Of a DNA stretch of 64,000 nt, positions 46,986 to 57,595 are shown piece by piece. Location of the stretch: contig JALUTQ010000018.1 in NCBI GenBank assembly GCA_032718865.1, positions 186,001 to 250,000 of the forward strand, read 5' to 3'. Below the pieces are notes generated by a model that worked only from the letters and a program-made list of their open reading frames with translations, searched no databases and had not been told where the DNA came from. The number at the start of each line of letters is the position of its first letter. The stretch's first letter is position 1. The DNA is from Tilletia caries (Eukaryota; Basidiomycota; Exobasidiomycetes; Tilletiales; Tilletiaceae). The position numbers and the translations under genes are program-made.

Positions 46986-47017
46986 TAGGAGTCAGTGCGG
47001 TTGCCGATCCGATCCTA

Positions 47018-49020
47018 TGGAACGCCGTTTGGGTCAGCCTTTCAGGTCGCCCAACATTTTTCCAGGGTCGCTACCACCAAAACCACTACCACAGTGAATC
47101 AATCCTCATCCAGCATCCACCGAGCATCTTCACATACACAAACACACCTGCGCACATGCAAGCATTGCGTCCTACGCCTACAACAGCTGCGCGCGTGCTG
47201 CACCGGGCCCAGAACTTGCGTGCGCTGACCGCTGACGTCTTTCGACTTTCTTTCACCCTCTCCTCCCCAGTCCTCCTCTTCTCCTTCCGACTGCTCTGTG
47301 AGCCACTCAGCGCGCACTACTTACTCTCTTCCTTCCCAACCTCTCCCCAGCAAACAGATACGAGGCACAATGGATCCATTCATGTGAGTGCCCCAATCCA
47401 AGCAAACAAGTTTTCTCAATCTTGTGCTGATGTTCTTCCCCCTCTTCTTCCCCACTCTGACAACCATGACAGAAGTTTCAGCCCGCCCAGCATTGCTGCT
47501 TCTGGCATTCATGCTCTGCTTCTGCCCGGCTGCCTTCTTTTTCTCGGCTACCCTGGCCCTTGAGTCGTTGACTGCGTCAGTGAGTGGACAGGCGGCTAGA
47601 CGCTAGTTGCTCAGCGCAGGCCGAAGGGACCATGACCTTGTTGACCTCCCGAACACTTCTCTTTGCTTCCTACAGATACTTTGGCCACGTCCGTACGTCT
47701 ACAATGCTGTTCCTGCTCCTTCGTTGCCTCCATTCGCACTCATCGTTGGTGAAATGCTATCAGTTCTGATATTGCTCAGGCCAGCTAGGTCCTATAAGCC
47801 TCCATGTACATGACAGTCGCATAAGTGATAAGACGTAACCCACTAACTCGTTCCTTGTTCGATGATGACATGATGGATGCGTGATAGAGTGCGAGGAAGC
47901 ACAGAGCTGGGTGGCGAGGTTATCAGTCGACAGTCAGTGGAGTGAAGAGGTCAAGAGGATGGATGGGCTGGAGGCAACAAGGAAGCAGTGAAATTTTCTC
48001 GGCTGATAACTCATTTCATGCCGTTCTCATTTCAGTGCATGATCATGTCCGTGCATCGTTATGTCCACAGGTCGACGCGGGTGAGAGGTTGGGGGTATGC
48101 AACCCGGGAGCGAGTCTGAAGAGGAGAGGTGTAGGTGGTCAGTGACTTGGTGCAGTCCCACGCGCAGACATGCATGGTGGAGTGACAGCTTACGTGCTTT
48201 GTCCTTTGGGATCTGAAACGGCGCAAAGGACAATATACAAAAGCTGTCAGCAGAGCATCGCACCGCGTGCGCAGTAAGGACTACTGCGTATGAACCTGCC
48301 TTCACAACATTGGTATCGAGTCCGTTGAGCCCCGGTGTGTGTACCGTACAGCGTGCGAGTAGCTGTGGAAGATTGTAATCGATTATCAGTGAACGAAGTA
48401 GTAGATGCATGCCGTGATTCGGGAAGTAGCCGTCTCACCTTACACAGCACCCGAGCCCTGATCACACGCGCACAGGACAGAGTGGCTCGCCGGTCAATGA
48501 TTCAGCGTTGCTGCGCGGTCTTGTGGCTGTAAGGCAGGGTGCAGCGCAAGAGAATGGTGATGAGCATTGAGCACTGTGCATGTAAGAAAGCGGGCGCGCT
48601 CACCTCAGGTCAAAAATGTATGGCCCTTGAAGCCTGCCGCCAAGACGAGATTCGAGAGCGCGCAAAGCGCAAGCTGTAGCCGACAAGGAGCAGGTGTGAA
48701 GATCCGAAGAGGCTGCAACAATGAGGATTGAACAAGGTTGGAGATGACTGGTGAGAGAAGAAGGTATCGGCGATTGGTACCAGCAGTAAGCACCCAGCTG
48801 GACAGCGGCGGAGAAAGGAGAAGGGTCAGCAGAGTCGGCAGAAAAGCGCGCGCGAGACGTGCTGCAAGTCAGGCGCAGACGGATAGGCGCAGCAATGGGC
48901 GTTGCGTGGGTTTGAGGATGGGTAGGGGTGATTGGGCAGTGGTATACTTAGTAGTGGAAAGTTTGGGCGACCCTGGAAAAATGTGGGGCGACCTGAAAGG
49001 CTGACCCAAACGGCGTTCCA
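47018..49020. mobile_element. 2.0-kb TIR element, TA target duplication
   Basis: 54-bp inverted repeats with one mismatch, beginning TGGAACGCCGTTTGGGTCAG, flanked by TA (47016-47017, 49021-49022). The interior contains a spliced reading frame 47466-47579 joined to 47676-47813 (83 residues, two hydrophobic segments, LLLLAFMLCFCPAAFFFS and PPFALIVGEMLSVLILL) with good splice sites, but no recognised transposase. It is therefore non-autonomous, or its gene is not recognisable. Confidence 0.8.
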
Positions 49021-49021
49021 T

Positions 49022-49030
49022 ACGATCCCC
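49022..49030. repeat. 9-bp target-site duplication, left copy
   Basis: ACGATCCCC, identical to 55300-55308, immediately outside the inverted repeats of the 6.27-kb element. Confidence 0.85.
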
Positions 49031-49298
49031 TAGTCTCATCGTATCAGACGTCTCTAACATGGACTGTGTGTGTCACGTGCTGTGGTGACCAAATGCCGCA
49101 AGCTGCGTATGGGCGCCCAGCGCCAAGTCCGATAGGACGTCTGATTCCACTTCTCAATGAAATCGACACATTGCAACCCTCCACATCTTCGCACGGGCCA
49201 CTGCCACTCTCACCACTTCAGCTTCCCAGTCCTCTCTCTCTCTCTCACCACTACAGTCCCAAGCTTCCCAGACCCACACATGGCACAACCATCTCACA

Positions 49299-52200
49299 AT
49301 GTCCGATTGCAGCGCATCGTCCTCACTCTCCTCGCTCTCCCCTGCGCCATCCTCGCCTGCCTCACAGAGTTCAGTCCCCCTCACAGAGTCTCAAGAACCG
49401 GCAAGCACTTCCTCCAGGCGGCGGAGGCTCCAAGACGCGGATATCCTCGCCTTTTTCGACTTCCTTGACGCCCGCGGCATCAGCTGCTCTAACCTCTTGA
49501 GGACGCTGTTCGACTCCGCTCAGCACTCAGGCCGCCTTTACGCTCATCTCCAGCAGCAAGGGCGCCAAGAAGAACGCCCTCCAAGTCGTCGTCGACACCT
49601 TACACGAAGAAGGCGACAAGGCAGCGAAGTTGAGCGATGTTCGTCGCCCGAGGAAGATGACCCGGGCCGACGATGTGCAGACCTTCAGCTTCCAGCAAAC
49701 CACTCGGTCCATCAAGCAACGACTGCCGTTCACCTTTGCGGTCGTAAACGCCATCGCGGGGGCCGACAGAGACGACAGCGGTGGCAGCGCAAGCAGCGCG
49801 ACTTCGAACGCGGACCCTCAAGCCTCGGCGATCGCGGACGCGTTCGATGGGCTGCCAACCTCAGCAGCATCGCTCAGCATGGAGCAGAGCGGTTCGGAGC
49901 AAGATGTAATGCGGGACGACGTGGGGTTGGAAGCTTGGGACGCTTTGATCGGTGACTGGGAGGACGATGAAGATCTGCTTGGCGCGAGACACATCTCGGA
50001 GCGACCTCTTCCCCGGGCGGCAACGACGACCAGGAGGCAGGATCAAGACGGAGCCCATCAGCTCGGCGCCGTGGTAAACGCTCGCCAAAGGTAGTGAGTC
50101 CATACCCATCCTGCGCCTTACATGTCTGATGTCTCATGCTGAACTTCCAAGCTCTACCTCGTTTCCTAATCAGGTCGCAGCGGCATCCATCATGTTTCTC
50201 CTCTTCGGCCGGAATCGACTCAATTCAAGATTTGCCCTCAGCTTAGGCATGTTCCTCTTCGCGTCGAGGACGGGACGCCGTGTGGTGGAAGTGCTGAGCC
50301 GTCTGGGGCTCTCGATAGCATATCTCACGGTGCTGAGGTCGGTCAAAGACCTGTCGAAGAAGTGCCGCAAGCGGGCCAGAGATACCTTTCTCGATCAGAG
50401 CAAGTGCCATATTTTTGGCTACGACAACATCAATTGGCAGCACAAGATACGCAACAAGACGGCGACCTCGACTACGGTGATGAAGGCAGCGGTCCATGGC
50501 GCCCTTTACGAGATCGACCCCTCGACTCAGATCAAGGAAGGACCGCAGCACTCGGTCTGTCATCCTCGCGTCCTCGAGGACATGCTGGGAGCGGATATGC
50601 CAGCTCCCTCCACAACGAGGACCAGTTTGCTCACAGACCTGGGTCCGAACCCTTGGCCGGCGTTGCGTGCACAGCGGGACGAGCTCCGAAAGAAGCCCCT
50701 GCCCGACAACTTACACCCTTCCGACGTGCTGTGTGGAGAACAGGACGATGAACAGATCCTCAAGGCGATGCTGAGCCATGCTCGGAAGGCGTTTCTCATC
50801 CAGCACGGGTATCTCCGATACGACTCGCCTGTCCCCGAACCGCCACAGATCTGGCCTCTTGCGGTGACCAAGACCAAGGTCTTTCCGCTCCCGGTGCTCA
50901 ACGTCGATGAAAGCTCGGTCCAAGGAAACTTGGAGGTCTTCAAGCAATACTTCCGCACCCAGCTCAAGATCCCCGACAGCTTCTGGTCCAACAACGTCCT
51001 CTTCGTAGTTCCCGACGCCTACACATCCATCAAGATCAAGCAATGCCAGAAGCTTCGTCGGTGCGACCTATCGTCGCAGGAGTTCGACCGCTTTTCCGCT
51101 CCGCAGCCATGTGCAGCTCCGTGGCATCTGATGTACGCGTACATCCGCTGCCTGATCTCCAACTACGGCGGGCCATCACAGCAAGCAAGCTTCATCAGTG
51201 TACGGAACATCGCGGAGCGGGTCGGCTTTCGGAACTTACTCTCTGAGCCCCACAACTTCCACGACTGCAACCGGTTCTTCCAGATCTGGTTCTCCGCCGC
51301 CAGCTGCACGATCATCGAGTCTGCCTTGAGGAAGAAGATGTCCCCGTGCGATCCGGTACAGCCAGCAGAGAAACCGGCTCCGACAGCGTCAACGTCAAGA
51401 CCGCAGCGACCCGAGGAAGTGATCTGCCCCTTCAGCGGTCCAAAGGATCTGAAGCACGCAGAGGCGGAGTTCAGCGGTCTCGACCAGTCCCTCTTCTTGC
51501 AGGTCAGCGAGGATGCGGTACGAGAGATGATCGGACAAGGCGCGTCAACACTTTTGCAGGAGCGGGAGACCGGCGGCGACAACAGGGACGACTGCGCGCT
51601 TCAAAGCCGACTGATGTTCCTCGACATCGGCCTATTCATCGAACTTCAAGCTGCAATCTCGACTGGCGACCCAGGGCGGATGGTTCTTGTCGTCAAGCAG
51701 CTCGTCCCTCGATTCCAAGCGACGGGACAGCACAACTACGTGAGCGAGCTGATGGAGATCCTCATCGCCTGCGATTCGAACTTCCTCCTGCGCTGCGCGC
51801 AAACCTCCTCGCCAGCCTTGTCGTCAACCTCGACGGAAAGGCCGACACCTTCAAGCCGGTCGACCTTGTTCAAGAGAACTTCGTCTACGACTTAAAGCAC
51901 ACCTGGCCTGTCGGTGGCGTCACGAAGTCAATCGAGTACCGGAGCGTGATGGGGTGGCTTCTGCAACTGCTTGCCGAAGTTAAGACTGGCTTCTGGACGG
52001 ACCTCGGCATCGCCTCACAAGATCAAAGGCACTCGGACAAGAAGCGTGGGATGACAATCCTGTCTCTGCGGCGGGATTTCGAGCGGTACGGCGTGTTCGA
52101 GTGGGACAGTGGTGGGCGACGGATCAACACCTTTGAGGTCATCCGCGGCGATGCTTTGCGGGCAGCGAAGAAGCGTGCACAGGAGAAGGGTACGAGCACC

Positions 52201-52482
52201 AAGACGCTCCGACAGGAAAAGAACGTTGCGTGTGATATGTATGCGACCGGGATGCTGGGTCTGCGTGGGACAACTGCTGGAAGCGGAACCCTCTCTAAGT
52301 GGGTATCGAGACGAAGCGTTGCTATGGGCAAAGACGCGAAGGAGAGTGTCGTGCGAGGGCAGGGGGACGAGAGTGAAGAGGAGGACGACATACTCATGCA
52401 AGACATCGAAAAAGATCGGTACAGACACACGGCCGTCATCAGCAACATGGACGGTTACGAAGAACTCATGGATGACGAATAG
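49299..52482 (+). pseudogene. DUF6589-family protein of the transposon, frameshifted
   Basis: Reads as one gene with one intron (donor at 50092, acceptor before 50149) and two apparent frameshifts, near 49,525 and near 51,785. N-terminal part: Ser-rich start, then ILAFFDFLDARGISCSNLLR. After the first shift: KKNALQVVVDTLHEEG. After the intron: MFLLFGRNRLNSRFALSLGMFLFAS, then VVEVLSRLGLSIAYLTVLRS, KCHIFGYDNINW, LNVDESSVQGNL, FVVPDAYTSIKIKQCQKLRR and WHLMYAYIRC. After the second shift: VVNLDGKADTFKPVDLVQEN. These match, in order, the layout I know for the basidiomycete DUF6589 domain. Asp residues in YDNIN, VDESS and VPDAYTS are candidates for a metal site but this is unproven. Confidence 0.72.
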
Positions 52483-52491
52483 AGACCAGAT

Positions 52492-55076
52492 TTACATTGT
52501 AGTCTGTCTGCCGCTACCTGATCTCCGCCCGAATGAAAGACGGTAAACACCCTCCATCCACGTTTCCGGCCAAGGTTCTCCCTCCACAGGTTTTCTTTCC
52601 TCGAGCCAGCGACGACCCGGACACACCCTGCTGTCGCGTCGATGCTGCCGACCGTCCACAGTCGCGCCTGCCGTCTGCGCATTGATCTGCGCGCAGGTGC
52701 CACAGATCGGACCTTGCTGCAAACCAGAACGTCAGCTGCATGTTGTGAGTATCATACACCCTGAACCCCAAACAACTCACGCTTGATCCTGACGATGTCG
52801 CTTGTTGGATTCTTGCTTGCAGATCCCGCTCCGATCGATCGTCCCTCCGCAAGGATCGTCTTTGCCTCTGCTCCTCTGCTCTCTCCGCAGCTCGCTGACG
52901 CTTCTCCGCTTCCTCTACCTCCTTCTCCGCGTCCCGCTTCTCTTTCTCCTCCCGCAGCACCGCAACAATCTCCTTCTCCAGATCCGGGAGAACGACATCC
53001 TTCGGCCGCATGTTGACGAAGAGACCAAGTCGTGAGTCTCCTTGGCTGATGTTGTGCGCGATTGCCTTTAGGTTGCTGACGACTGCGTCGATGTCCTGCT
53101 CGGCCATAAACGCATCAATTCCCATCCGTCCAGCTCGATTCAATCCCTTCCAGTTCTCCGGCCACTGTTTCCATCGCCACGCCTCCAGTCGACCACGTAA
53201 GATGCTCTGGGTACTCGTGATACCCGGCAGAGCGGGGATCGTCTCTTTGGACGGAGCGAACTCCTCGGGCACGCGCGGAAGAGGCTCTAATCGCACGTCG
53301 AGCAACAGGGCAACTCCCTGCCTGGAGGGATCGGTCGGCTGGAATGGTACAGCTCCTCGTGTCTTGGCAGCGTCTCGGCCTTGGGCTGTGCAAGATGATC
53401 GAGAACCAATCGGCGAATACACGCATCGCGTTCGAGACCGTGCCGAGCAAGCATCAAGAGTTCGTCGTCCACGATCTTCTTTGCGACCGCCCGACTGTCC
53501 GTTCCGCTCCGAATCAACGCCACGTCGTTCTCAAGGGTAATGGGGCCATCCTCATCGACTTCATCGATCTCTGGAGGCGCAGGCAACTCTCCTGTGGCGG
53601 CAATGTGCTTCCGCATTTCGGCGGTCATATGCGTAGGCTCGACGAACAAGATCGCCTCGGCCTCATCCGCAAAGTCGCGCCCTGCTCGGCCCATACGCTG
53701 CTACCAGGCCGACACCCCGCCGAATAACTTCAACTGGATGACTCGCAAGATCGCTCGACAGTCGGCCCCCATACCAAACGCGTCGGTACAGATCACGATG
53801 AGGATTTTGCCGGTATTGATGAGCATGAGGATCTTGGAGCGGTGTTCGTCGGTGAGGTCGGCGTGGTAGAGCTGGACGATGTTCTTGAAGCCGGCGCGCA
53901 AGCACCACTTGTCCAGTACGTGCTTCAGGTTCGTTGCCGCGTCTTTGCTGTTGATGTATACGAGTGTGACCAGAAACTTCTTCATCCTTTCCACAGTAGA
54001 GGCTCCTTCGGCGGCAGATTGCCAGAGCTCTGGCAGTACCGACAGGACGTCCAGGAAGCCTGCGATCGGATGTTGCATGGGGAGTACGCGGCGGTGTAGG
54101 TTCGGCCGATCCGTGCCGACGTCGATGAACAGAGGCCGCTGCATTTCCAACGTGAGTTCGCATGCGAGTCTGGCCTCCTTCGTGAGCGTCGCTGACATGA
54201 CCAATGCTGGTACATTCAGATGTCGTCGTACACGGCCGAGCTTCAAGAACTTGGGACGAAAGTCGTGGCCCCACTGATCGAGAGTGTGGGCTTCGTCGAA
54301 AACAAACCCGACAGCCTGCTTGCGGAAATCCTCCTTCATCAAGACCTCATTCAGGAAGTCACCCTCGACCGCGCTATTGGGGGTGATGAAGACGATTCGA
54401 TACTTCCCGGCGCGGATGTCCTTGAGCAAGCGGTCGTCCTTGTTCGTGCTGTCGACATATGCGGCAAGATCGCCGAACCTGGTCGGATTCCAACACGGTG
54501 AGCTGACAGCCTGGCATCTTGCTCGAGCGCCATTCTAGACGGGTACTCACCGTTCAGCGAACTCCTTTGTCAAGGAGACCAGAGGCTCAACGACAATTAG
54601 CGTACCTTTACCGAGCAAGTGGTTCAGGTACCGGATGGCCTCTCCCTTCCCTGTCGACGTGGGCGAGGCGTAAAAGGTGTCTCGTCCCTCCCGCACGGCA
54701 TCTACCGCAGCAATCTGCGCCGGCTTCGGTGCATGCTTGAGGCCGCAACTGCTGAGCACGGAAAGGGTGATGGGGCAGAGCTGTGAGACGAGTGGTGAGA
54801 AGACTGTCAGTTTTCGTAGCCCAAGCTCAGAATACACAACTGATATACCTTGGCTCTCTTCGCCCATCGGCTCTCTTCCCCAGCAGGTTCCTCTTCTCCT
54901 CGAGCTCGCTTCCCTAGGACAGAAGTTGGTAAAACAGGATCGCCATTCCGGTCGAGAATCGTAAATTGCTTGGAGATGCGCATACATGCGCCCGAAAGGG
55001 CTCGGATCGGAGCGAGGGCGGCATTGATGAGTTCCATAGGTCTCCAGCTATGCGAGCGTATAGGTTTTGTAGCCAT
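52492..55076 (-). pseudogene. RecQ-family DNA helicase of the transposon, with stop and frameshift
   Basis: Exons 55076-54849, 54780-54551 and from 54502 onward. Helicase motifs: a Walker A-like ASPTSTGKGEA with Gly where Ser/Thr is expected, FDEAHTLDQWGHDFRP (DEAH plus the RecQ aromatic loop), ALVMSATL, VYINSKDAATNL, LYHADLTDEHR, CTDAFGMGAD and QRMGRAGRD. A TAG at 53701-53703 interrupts just before QRMGRAGRD. A frameshift is needed at about 53287, after a Cys-rich CCSTCD zinc-type motif, to continue into PLPRVPEEFAPSKETIPALPG and a Glu/Arg-rich coiled coil. A final exon (52716-52492) is reached by a consensus intron. Related helicases occur in fungal telomere-linked (TLH) genes. Confidence 0.75.
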
Positions 55077-55299
55077 TTGATGTGTTTATGTTGATGTTGT
55101 GTGGTGAGCAAGTGATGTGAGTATGGGAGGGTTGCAATCCCTTATAGGCACATTGTGAGTGGAGTCAGACGTCCTAGCGGACTTTCGTTCCGAAAGCATA
55201 GAGCAGCTTGCGGCATTTGCTTTTCGGGTCACGTGACACAGTCAACACGTGGCCTCACACAACGAATTAACACCGCGGACGTCTGATACGATGAGACTA

Positions 55300-55308
55300 A
55301 CGATCCCC
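55300..55308. repeat. 9-bp target-site duplication, right copy
   Basis: ACGATCCCC, matching 49022-49030. Confidence 0.85.
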
Positions 55309-55458: not shown

Positions 55459-57595
55459 ATGCGCTTCTCTTCGTGGCTCAACACAGCCTCCGCTGCCATC
55501 GTCTGTGGCGCTGCCCTCGCACAGGCGGACGGCTTCGGCCAGCAGAAGCCCATGGCAGCCCTCGCCCGACCCGACTTCTCCGACGCCGAGAACACCCTCG
55601 CCAACAAGGGCGCACACGTCCAGCACCAGATCGAACACGCCCTCGACGATCTCCGCCACCTCGTCCTCGACCACTCCGAGGAGGTCCACAAGAAGGTCAA
55701 GTCGCAAAAGCACAAGCTCGAGGAGCACTTCGCCGACGCTCTCAAGGACGCCGCTCAGGCCGTCGACGCTCTCAAGGGCATCGGCAGCGAGCTCATCAAC
55801 GCTGGTCGTGTCTTTGTCGACGGACACGAGTTCGACAAGTTTGTCCACAAGGCCTTCCCCACCTACACTCTCCGTCTCAACACCAAGAAAGAGGAGACCC
55901 TCTGCGCGTCCGACGTCATCAAGCACACTGGTTACCTCGACATCGACGACTCCAAACACCTGTGGTTCACATACTTCGAGAGTCGCAGCAACCCCGCGAA
56001 GGACCCTCTTGTCCTCTGGCTGAACGGCGGGCCCGGATGCTCATCCTCAACGGGTCTGCTTTTCGAGCTCGGACCGTGCCTGATTGCCGATGGAGGCAAC
56101 AGCGTCAAGTACAACCCGCACTCGTGGACCAGCAACGCCAACCTGATCTTCCTTGACCAGCCCGTCGAGGTCGGCTACTCGTACAGCGACGATGGCTCGA
56201 GCGTCAACAACTCTCAGGACTCTGCAGCAGATGTGTACGCCTTCCTCCAGCTCTTCTTCCAGAAGTTCCCCGAGCTAGGCAAGAAGGACTTCCACGTCGC
56301 TGCTGAGAGTTACGGTGGCCACTACGCCCCCAACATCGCCAGCGTCATCCACAAGAACAACCAGGCCATCAAGGCCAACGACGTCAGCTCCGCCGCCGCC
56401 GTGCACATCAACCTCGCCTCCGTCGTGATCGGCAACGGCCTGACCGAGCCCTACACCCAGTTCGCGTCCGTGTACGACTTTGCGTGCTCGGCCGACAACA
56501 AGTTCCACCTGTTCGACCCCAAGAGCTCGACCTGTGCCTCGCTGCAGCAGAAGGCCAAGACGTGCCAGGGTCTGATTGGACAGTGCCAGAAGTACAACTC
56601 GCAGCTGGTATGCACGCCTGCGACGCTCTACTGCTGGGGATCTATGTACGGCGATGCGCAGAACAGTGGCAAGAACTTGTACGATGTGCGTCGGACTTGC
56701 GACCGCGCTGAGGACAAGGACGGACCGCTCTGCTACAAGCAGATGGAGTGGATCGATGGTAAGTTGTGCCGTCTCGGAACCTGCTTAGTTTCACGCGTCT
56801 GTCTGACCGGTCAACGCCTGCCTTCACAGTTTACATGAACAAGCCTGAAACCAAGAAGCTCTTCGGTGCTCCCGACTCGCGCGAGTTCCAGTCTTGCAGT
56901 GAGTTCATCTTGGGAAGTGAAATGCTCTCATTCTGGCTGGTTGCTGATTTTTTATTGTCTGTAGACATGGACATCAACCGTGCGTTCCAGATGCACGGCG
57001 ACTCCATGCACAACTCGGCTGCCCTCATTCCCCCGATGGTCGAGGATGGCATCCGATTCCTCATCTACGCTGGGTGAGTTACTTTTGCAGCATAGCTGAA
57101 GTCTGTGAAGAACCTGTTCTGAAGTGTGATTTCCCCTTCCCCTCTTGTGCAGTGAGACCGACTACATGTGGTGAGTTCTGTCTACGCTTTGTGCTCACAT
57201 TCTTGAAGGAAATACTGACGTGTATACTCTGCACGTTCTCTAGCAACTGGATCGGCAACCAGCGCTGGGTCCTTAGCCTCGACACGCCCTTCCAGAAGGA
57301 GCTGAACAAGGCCGGTAACGCGACCTGGTACGCCAACGGCACCGCCGCAGGTACCGTCACCTCTGCCGGCAAGGGTGGCTTTGGAGAGTTCTCATTCGTC
57401 CGGCTCTTTGAGTCTGGCCACATGGTACGTGTTAACTCATATGAACTCGTCTCTGAATTTCCTGCATATATTGACATAACACCCTTTCTGGCCCCAAAGG
57501 TACCCACCGACCAGCCTATCGCTGCTCTCGAGTTGCTCAACTCGTGGCTGTCGAACTCGGCTTTGGACACAAAGAAGCCTTCGAAGAAGCACTGA
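55459..57595 (+). CDS. PRC1: serine carboxypeptidase, carboxypeptidase Y type (vacuolar)
   Basis: Six exons: 55459-56758, 56830-56898, 56965-57073, 57153-57170 (18 nt), 57244-57424 and 57500-57595, 590 residues. A signal peptide (SSWLNTASAAIVCGAALAQA) is followed by a pro-region of about 100 residues rich in charged helix. The mature enzyme (about 125-590) has LWLNGGPGCSSSTGLLFELGP, AAESYGGHYAP with nucleophile Ser284, YAGETDYMCNW with Asp496 and ESGHMVPTDQP with His558. The catalytic Asp is encoded by the 18-nt exon. It removes C-terminal residues from peptides in the vacuole. The domain order and Cys pattern fit CPY rather than Kex1. Confidence 0.94.

Follow-up and report, generated by a model that had tools for sequence, protein, structure and literature searches.

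AcademH elements, which belong to the Academ superfamily, are described in the consulted parts of two papers as encoding a transposase together with a helicase, as making target site duplications (TSDs) of 9 or 10 bp, and as occurring at low copy number in fungi, including Basidiomycota, and in animals (PMC10045372; PMC10799480). For AcademX, one of these papers, as far as consulted, gives a nuclease and TSDs of 3 or 4 bp (PMC10045372). According to the consulted sections of a further paper, KolobokH carries a RecQ helicase downstream of the transposase domain and is known from fungi only, and in the red algal element Kolobok-1_CCri a RecQ helicase is encoded by the complementary strand (PMC9587614). 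Here, we describe a stretch of 64,000 nucleotides from Tilletia caries (contig JALUTQ010000018.1, positions 186,001 to 250,000; hereafter the window, from whose first letter coordinates are counted), which contains at 49031-55299 an element of 6,269 bp with a gene of the Pfam family DUF6589 (PF20231) and a gene for a RecQ-like helicase. This element is very probably an AcademH-type DNA transposon that has decayed, an assignment made because all features described for AcademH elements except low copy number are matched, and one that follows the description of AcademH and not its transposase sequence. An earlier note on this DNA had proposed an undescribed DNA transposon; a discrete DNA transposon is indeed indicated by terminal inverted repeats (TIRs), a 9-bp duplication and a recurring unit, but "undescribed" is not supported, since the description of AcademH already fits.

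The ends of the element consist of the same 22 bp in inverted orientation (49031-49052 and 55278-55299, 22/22 matching), where 20 bp had been reported before, and the additional matching blocks claimed to lie in the same order are present as two collinear inner pairs (49069-49106 with 55203-55240, 79% match; 49125-49151 with 55158-55184, 93% match). The left TIR spans 49031-49151 on the plus strand and the right TIR 55158-55299 on the minus strand. Both are flanked by an exact 9-bp direct repeat, ACGATCCCC, the two copies of which (49022-49030 and 55300-55308, 9/9 identical, no strand assigned) form the TSD. A joint scan for an exact 9-bp flanking repeat next to 14-bp ends with at most three mismatches recovered the element and found nothing in 85 mononucleotide-shuffled control loci, which bears out the flanking duplication of the earlier note. 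The end sequence TAGTCTCATCGTATCAGACG recurs exactly elsewhere in the genome. At many ends the first 20 bp contain an imperfect palindrome (e.g., GTCTGGT-CAC-ACCAGAC); the share of shuffled sequences that scored at least as high as the real end ranged from 0.0005 to 0.89 for 22 ends of 11 loci and was 0.098 and 0.119 at the window's own ends, and a score of at least 5, which most window-type ends reach, was also found in 347 of 3300 internal control 26-mers. The palindromes are therefore suggestive at best, and they are not claimed as a real feature.

The DUF6589 gene (49299-52482, plus strand; placed by Pfam PF20231 and alignments, with a guessed start codon) matches the family in two overlapping plus-strand frames (E = 1e-39 and 1.1e-14), which cover approximately 50717-51769 and 51763-52032. 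The reading switches frame near 51770-51800, where there is no space for an intron. Candidate catalytic codons are those for D at 50423-50425 (YDN), D at 51014-51016 (PDAYT) and E at 51874-51876 (QENF). The helicase gene (52492-54987, minus strand; Pfam DEAD and Helicase_C, with start and introns inferred) has a DEAH box at 54286-54297 and an in-frame stop at 53701-53703, a point at which the relatives shown read through; introns probably lie from around 54550 downwards and near 52780-52717. Judged from the sequence, this copy looks broken in both genes, by the frame change in the one and the in-frame stop in the other. The uninterrupted helicase frame of a relative at another locus (L033) matches BLM/RecQ structures (E = 4e-15), and the best NCBIfam match of the helicases of L033 and L044 is a RecQ family model, with a score under the curated cut-off. 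The convergent arrangement described earlier is present, with stops about 10 bp apart only if a 64-nt 3'-terminal intron is assumed for the RecQ gene (stops at 52492-52494 and 52480-52482, gap 9 bp); if the gene is left unspliced or a 45-nt intron is taken instead, its stop falls at 52514-52516 and the stops are about 30 bp apart.

DUF6589 is the probable DDE transposase of the element, as the earlier note had supposed, a reading that draws on the predicted fold, on conserved acidic residues, and on ends and duplications common to many copies. DDE enzymes carry an aspartate on the first strand, an aspartate after a later strand and a glutamate on a late helix. In AlphaFold models, DUF6589 adopts an RNase H-like fold of the DDE transposase type, in which the glutamate is preceded by a long helical insertion, so that the structure prediction suggested earlier gave the expected fold with conserved acids, as a prediction only. 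In the model of P0015, D178 lies in strand 173-183, D359 after strand 354-358 and E614 in helix 609-624; in that of P0002, D382 lies in strand 377-387, D580 after strand 575-579 and E831 in helix 826-839, and both models would conform to the general DDE layout. The best fold match is Hermes, followed by the P element, Tn5, ISCth4, Transib and RAG1, a ranking from which unlisted families are not thereby excluded as relatives. Mutator-like elements (MULEs) make 9-11 bp duplications and have long TIRs, and a MULE that gained a helicase would resemble the element in both respects; however, a MULE or Transposase_mut match in Pfam was found in none of 15 DUF6589-matching proteins or open reading frames, and in both predicted models Hermes has the higher score. 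Such an origin is very improbable, and Mutator was rejected for lack of the MULE domain in these 15 sequences.

At the level of sequence, no match to DUF6589 was found among PDB sequences (a single row at E = 0.19), a scan of viral contigs with four DUF6589 proteins gave 45 pattern matches of which none was confirmed, and a viral structure library contained nothing at E < 0.001. A profile built from 13 mixed sequences retrieved only three proteins, from T. indica and T. controversa, perhaps due to low-complexity N termini. DUF6589 was found in Tilletia, Pleurotus, Mycena, Pisolithus, Boletus, Puccinia and Gloeophyllum, and none was seen in animals, with about 8000 candidates scored per search.

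The two genes occur together throughout the one Tilletia assembly searched (38.1 Mb), whose placement in this genus agrees with a 97% match to a T. controversa protein over 66% of the query. At least 75 PF20231 matches group into 48 clusters, and in 42 of these the nearest RecQ match lies in convergent orientation at a distance below 4 kb, which supports RecQ as a regular tail-to-tail partner of DUF6589 in this genome; for two clusters the nearest RecQ, 5.7 and 6.9 kb off, has the same orientation as DUF6589, and around the other four there is no RecQ within 20 kb. Conversely, eight of 50 RecQ clusters lack DUF6589 inside 6 kb. Random placement of 48 and 50 points gave 0.9 pairs on average and five at most (2000 trials). 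Pairwise distances of the two proteins correlate over 17 loci (r = 0.982; 0/5000 permutations) and, with near-identical loci removed, over 10 loci (r = 0.962); although permutation tests of this type take no account of the tree, the direction is clear. For divergent pairs, the ratio of nonsynonymous to synonymous substitution rates (dN/dS) is 0.175 for the single RecQ pair that could be computed, and for DUF6589 it is 0.139 and 0.196, with high dS throughout, and in four further divergent pairs silent sites are saturated. In the nine close pairs the ratio lies between 0.26 and 1.87, a difference that is expected if inserted copies decay freely while lineages persist via working copies. The retention of the helicase in 42 of 48 clusters and its co-divergence with the transposase indicate that the RecQ-like helicase is likely needed for the element.

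For a comparison of ends and duplications, 18 of the 47 other DUF6589 clusters were read with their surroundings (10 kb each) together with the window (19 loci, with TSD lengths of 7-11 bp allowed). Exact duplications beside matching ends are present at 13 loci, the window and 12 of the 18 others, with 9 bp at the window (WIN), L029, L030, L033, L035, L036, L037, L038, L044 and L045, and 10 bp at L040, L041 and L043; no duplication was found beside family ends at L031, L032, L034, L039, L042 and L046. In the stricter scan, 7- and 8-bp matches off family ends (WIN 3481, L034, L037 2544) were dropped as chance. In a looser scan, which permitted four mismatches for duplications of at least 9 bp, L045 (9 bp, ends 24/26 alike) and L037 (9 bp) were kept, the latter recovered only at four mismatches because one of its ends is a base short relative to its family; matches at L046, L031 and L042 were dropped as chance, as were those that came up once more at L034 and L037 2544. 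The ends fall into the classes TAGTCTCATCG (window, L044), TAGTCTCATAG (L029, L030, L037, L038) and TAGTCTGGT (L033, L040, L041, L043), and L035, L036 and L045 have other ends.

Together with 20 facing end pairs that were read at both ends with TSD lengths of 4-12 bp allowed, 27 exact TSDs lie beside family ends in 39 copies (13/19 two-gene loci, 14/20 end pairs); 14 of these TSDs are 9 bp long and 13 are 10 bp long. Across both sets, all 10 exact duplications at TAGTCTCAT ends measure 9 bp and 13 of the 14 at TAGTCTGGT ends measure 10 bp, and the comparison of copies proposed in the earlier note thus yields a duplication of 9 or 10 bp that tracks the end type. L033 is nearly identical to L040 and L041 (97-99% in both proteins), yet has a 9-bp and not a 10-bp duplication, and one transposase may therefore produce both lengths. 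Kolobok elements duplicate TTAA, and the duplications of 9 or 10 bp, which differ between sites, refute a KolobokH element or other Kolobok relative unless the TTAA rule is wrong. It speaks for such a relative that KolobokH, a fungal group, has a RecQ helicase and that Kolobok-1_CCri has its RecQ on the complementary strand, as here, and against it that the KolobokH helicase is placed downstream of the transposase domain, not in a convergent gene on the opposite strand (PMC9587614, as far as consulted). KolobokH was rejected on duplication length and variability and on helicase placement, and we give this origin practically no credence.

The facing pairs were picked among the genomic matches listed for two ends at up to two mismatches. 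The TAGTCTGGTCACACCAGAC end has 219 such matches, of which 100 were listed, and the window-type end has 30, all of them listed, which answers the genome search called for earlier; reversed-pattern controls gave none for either. The duplication is exact in 14 of the 20 pairs; in another it is 9 bp long and contains one mismatch, and five pairs have none. One pair (C27, 7.2 kb) is a full element with both genes, and 16 span 528-2574 bp, too short for both, of which 13 have exact duplications. That short copies behave like their long relatives is expected if the transposase acts on them in trans. The TAGTCTGGTCACACCAGAC set includes short derivatives near 530 and 850 bp, which look like families of miniature inverted-repeat transposable elements. 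One derivative of 2.6 kb (C5:716562-719135), which has window-type ends and is flanked by an exact 9-bp duplication, contains a short RecQ fragment (C5:718308-718436, 34 bits), as expected of an internally deleted element. Two further pairs of window-type ends, 7.4 kb apart with the one-mismatch duplication (C7:625627-633023) and 11.5 kb apart without duplication (C1:2075361-2086863), have no DUF6589 or RecQ among the matches listed between them and may carry other cargo. RecQ helicases are found at fungal chromosome ends, and host gene pairs could spread by segmental or subtelomeric duplication like telomere-linked helicases; this explanation is refuted by exact duplications, each particular to its site, that flank matching TIRs on many contigs, and by short derivatives with the same ends as the two-gene elements.

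To the left of the element lies a 2.0-kb repeat (47010-49028) with 61-bp inverted ends, the termini TATGG..CCATA and the 6-bp CGATCC on both sides. It fits an IS3EU-like element, for which 6-bp duplications and the termini TAYGG..CCRTA are given in the consulted part of the source (PMC12730594), and its right-end 182 bp have 15 other genomic matches (180-182 bases, 97-99% identity). In the left copy of ACGATCCCC, base 1 is the terminal A of this repeat and bases 2-7 are its right CGATCC, and both reappear on the other side of the DUF6589 element. It follows that the 9 bp are duplicated target and not part of the element, and, most simply, that the IS3EU-like element is older and the DUF6589 element was inserted later. 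An empty site for this insertion was not found, the left flank being the end of a multi-copy IS3EU-like repeat and not an empty allele. On the other side, a serine carboxypeptidase gene (55459-56835; Peptidase_S10, E = 1.9e-74) starts 150 bp past the right duplication, and the element may therefore be located in its promoter.

In a probable mechanism, consistent with the fold, ends and duplications, the TIRs would be bound by the DUF6589 protein, which would also excise the element and join both ends to the target with a stagger of 9 bp in the TAGTCTCAT lineage and 10 bp in the TAGTCTGGT lineage; it would act in trans on the short derivatives. The RecQ-like helicase would be required as a partner and would unwind DNA either at the ends, at the strand-transfer joint or during gap repair. 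The proposal that it assists replication or excision is supported as far as RecQ being a regular, co-diverging partner. A Pfam family listed as of unknown function would become a probable DDE transposase with named catalytic candidates, which makes DUF6589 genes in basidiomycete annotations suspect as transposon genes. In a single genome, transposase-helicase units arranged tail to tail number in the dozens and are accompanied by many short derivatives, while the duplication length shifts from 9 to 10 bp between related lineages, and this set makes the role of a RecQ helicase in cut-and-paste transposition testable.

Among known systems, a helical insertion before the catalytic glutamate is known in hAT elements, the P element and Transib/RAG1, with TSDs of 8, 8 and 5 bp, respectively. 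The modeled DUF6589 fold resembles these enzymes (Hermes for hAT) in its RNase H-like catalytic core and this insertion, and differs in its 9- or 10-bp TSDs and the lack of a sequence match in PDB. With KolobokH, as far as described in the consulted source, the element shares being a fungal DNA transposon with a RecQ helicase, but there the helicase is downstream of the transposase domain and not convergent on the opposite strand (PMC9587614). AcademX would belong to the same superfamily if our assignment holds; its nuclease and 3- or 4-bp TSDs, as given in the consulted part, were not seen here (PMC10045372). The name DUF6589 was not found in the literature searched, which comprised 5.39 million papers, and the string PF20231 appeared only in four papers with unrelated titles; reports elsewhere are possible, and within this literature the link between DUF6589 and the AcademH transposase seems unreported. 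This, the likeness to Academ by description and not sequence, and the absence of any other Pfam transposase family in the DUF6589 proteins scanned (for two of them also in NCBIfam) would suit a separate undescribed superfamily, with a DDE transposase not homologous to Academ, an independently acquired RecQ and coincidental 9/10-bp TSDs. We regard this as improbable, because a helicase, 9- or 10-bp TSDs and basidiomycete hosts are exactly what the consulted descriptions of AcademH give (PMC10045372; PMC10799480). Hardly less improbable is a superfamily apart from Academ whose DDE cut-and-paste machinery includes a separately encoded RecQ helicase as an obligate, co-evolved component, and in which the 9/10-bp stagger depends on the transposase lineage. 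The AcademH-type assignment, by comparison, is matched by a transposase with a predicted DDD/E fold, a helicase with DEAD and Helicase_C domains, TSDs of 9 or 10 bp and a host in the Basidiomycota, and it differs in that AcademH is described as low-copy and the DUF6589 elements are not. The naming of DUF6589 as the transposase, the convergent layout at 42 loci, a TSD length that tracks the end type and the short derivatives go beyond the AcademH description as far as consulted.
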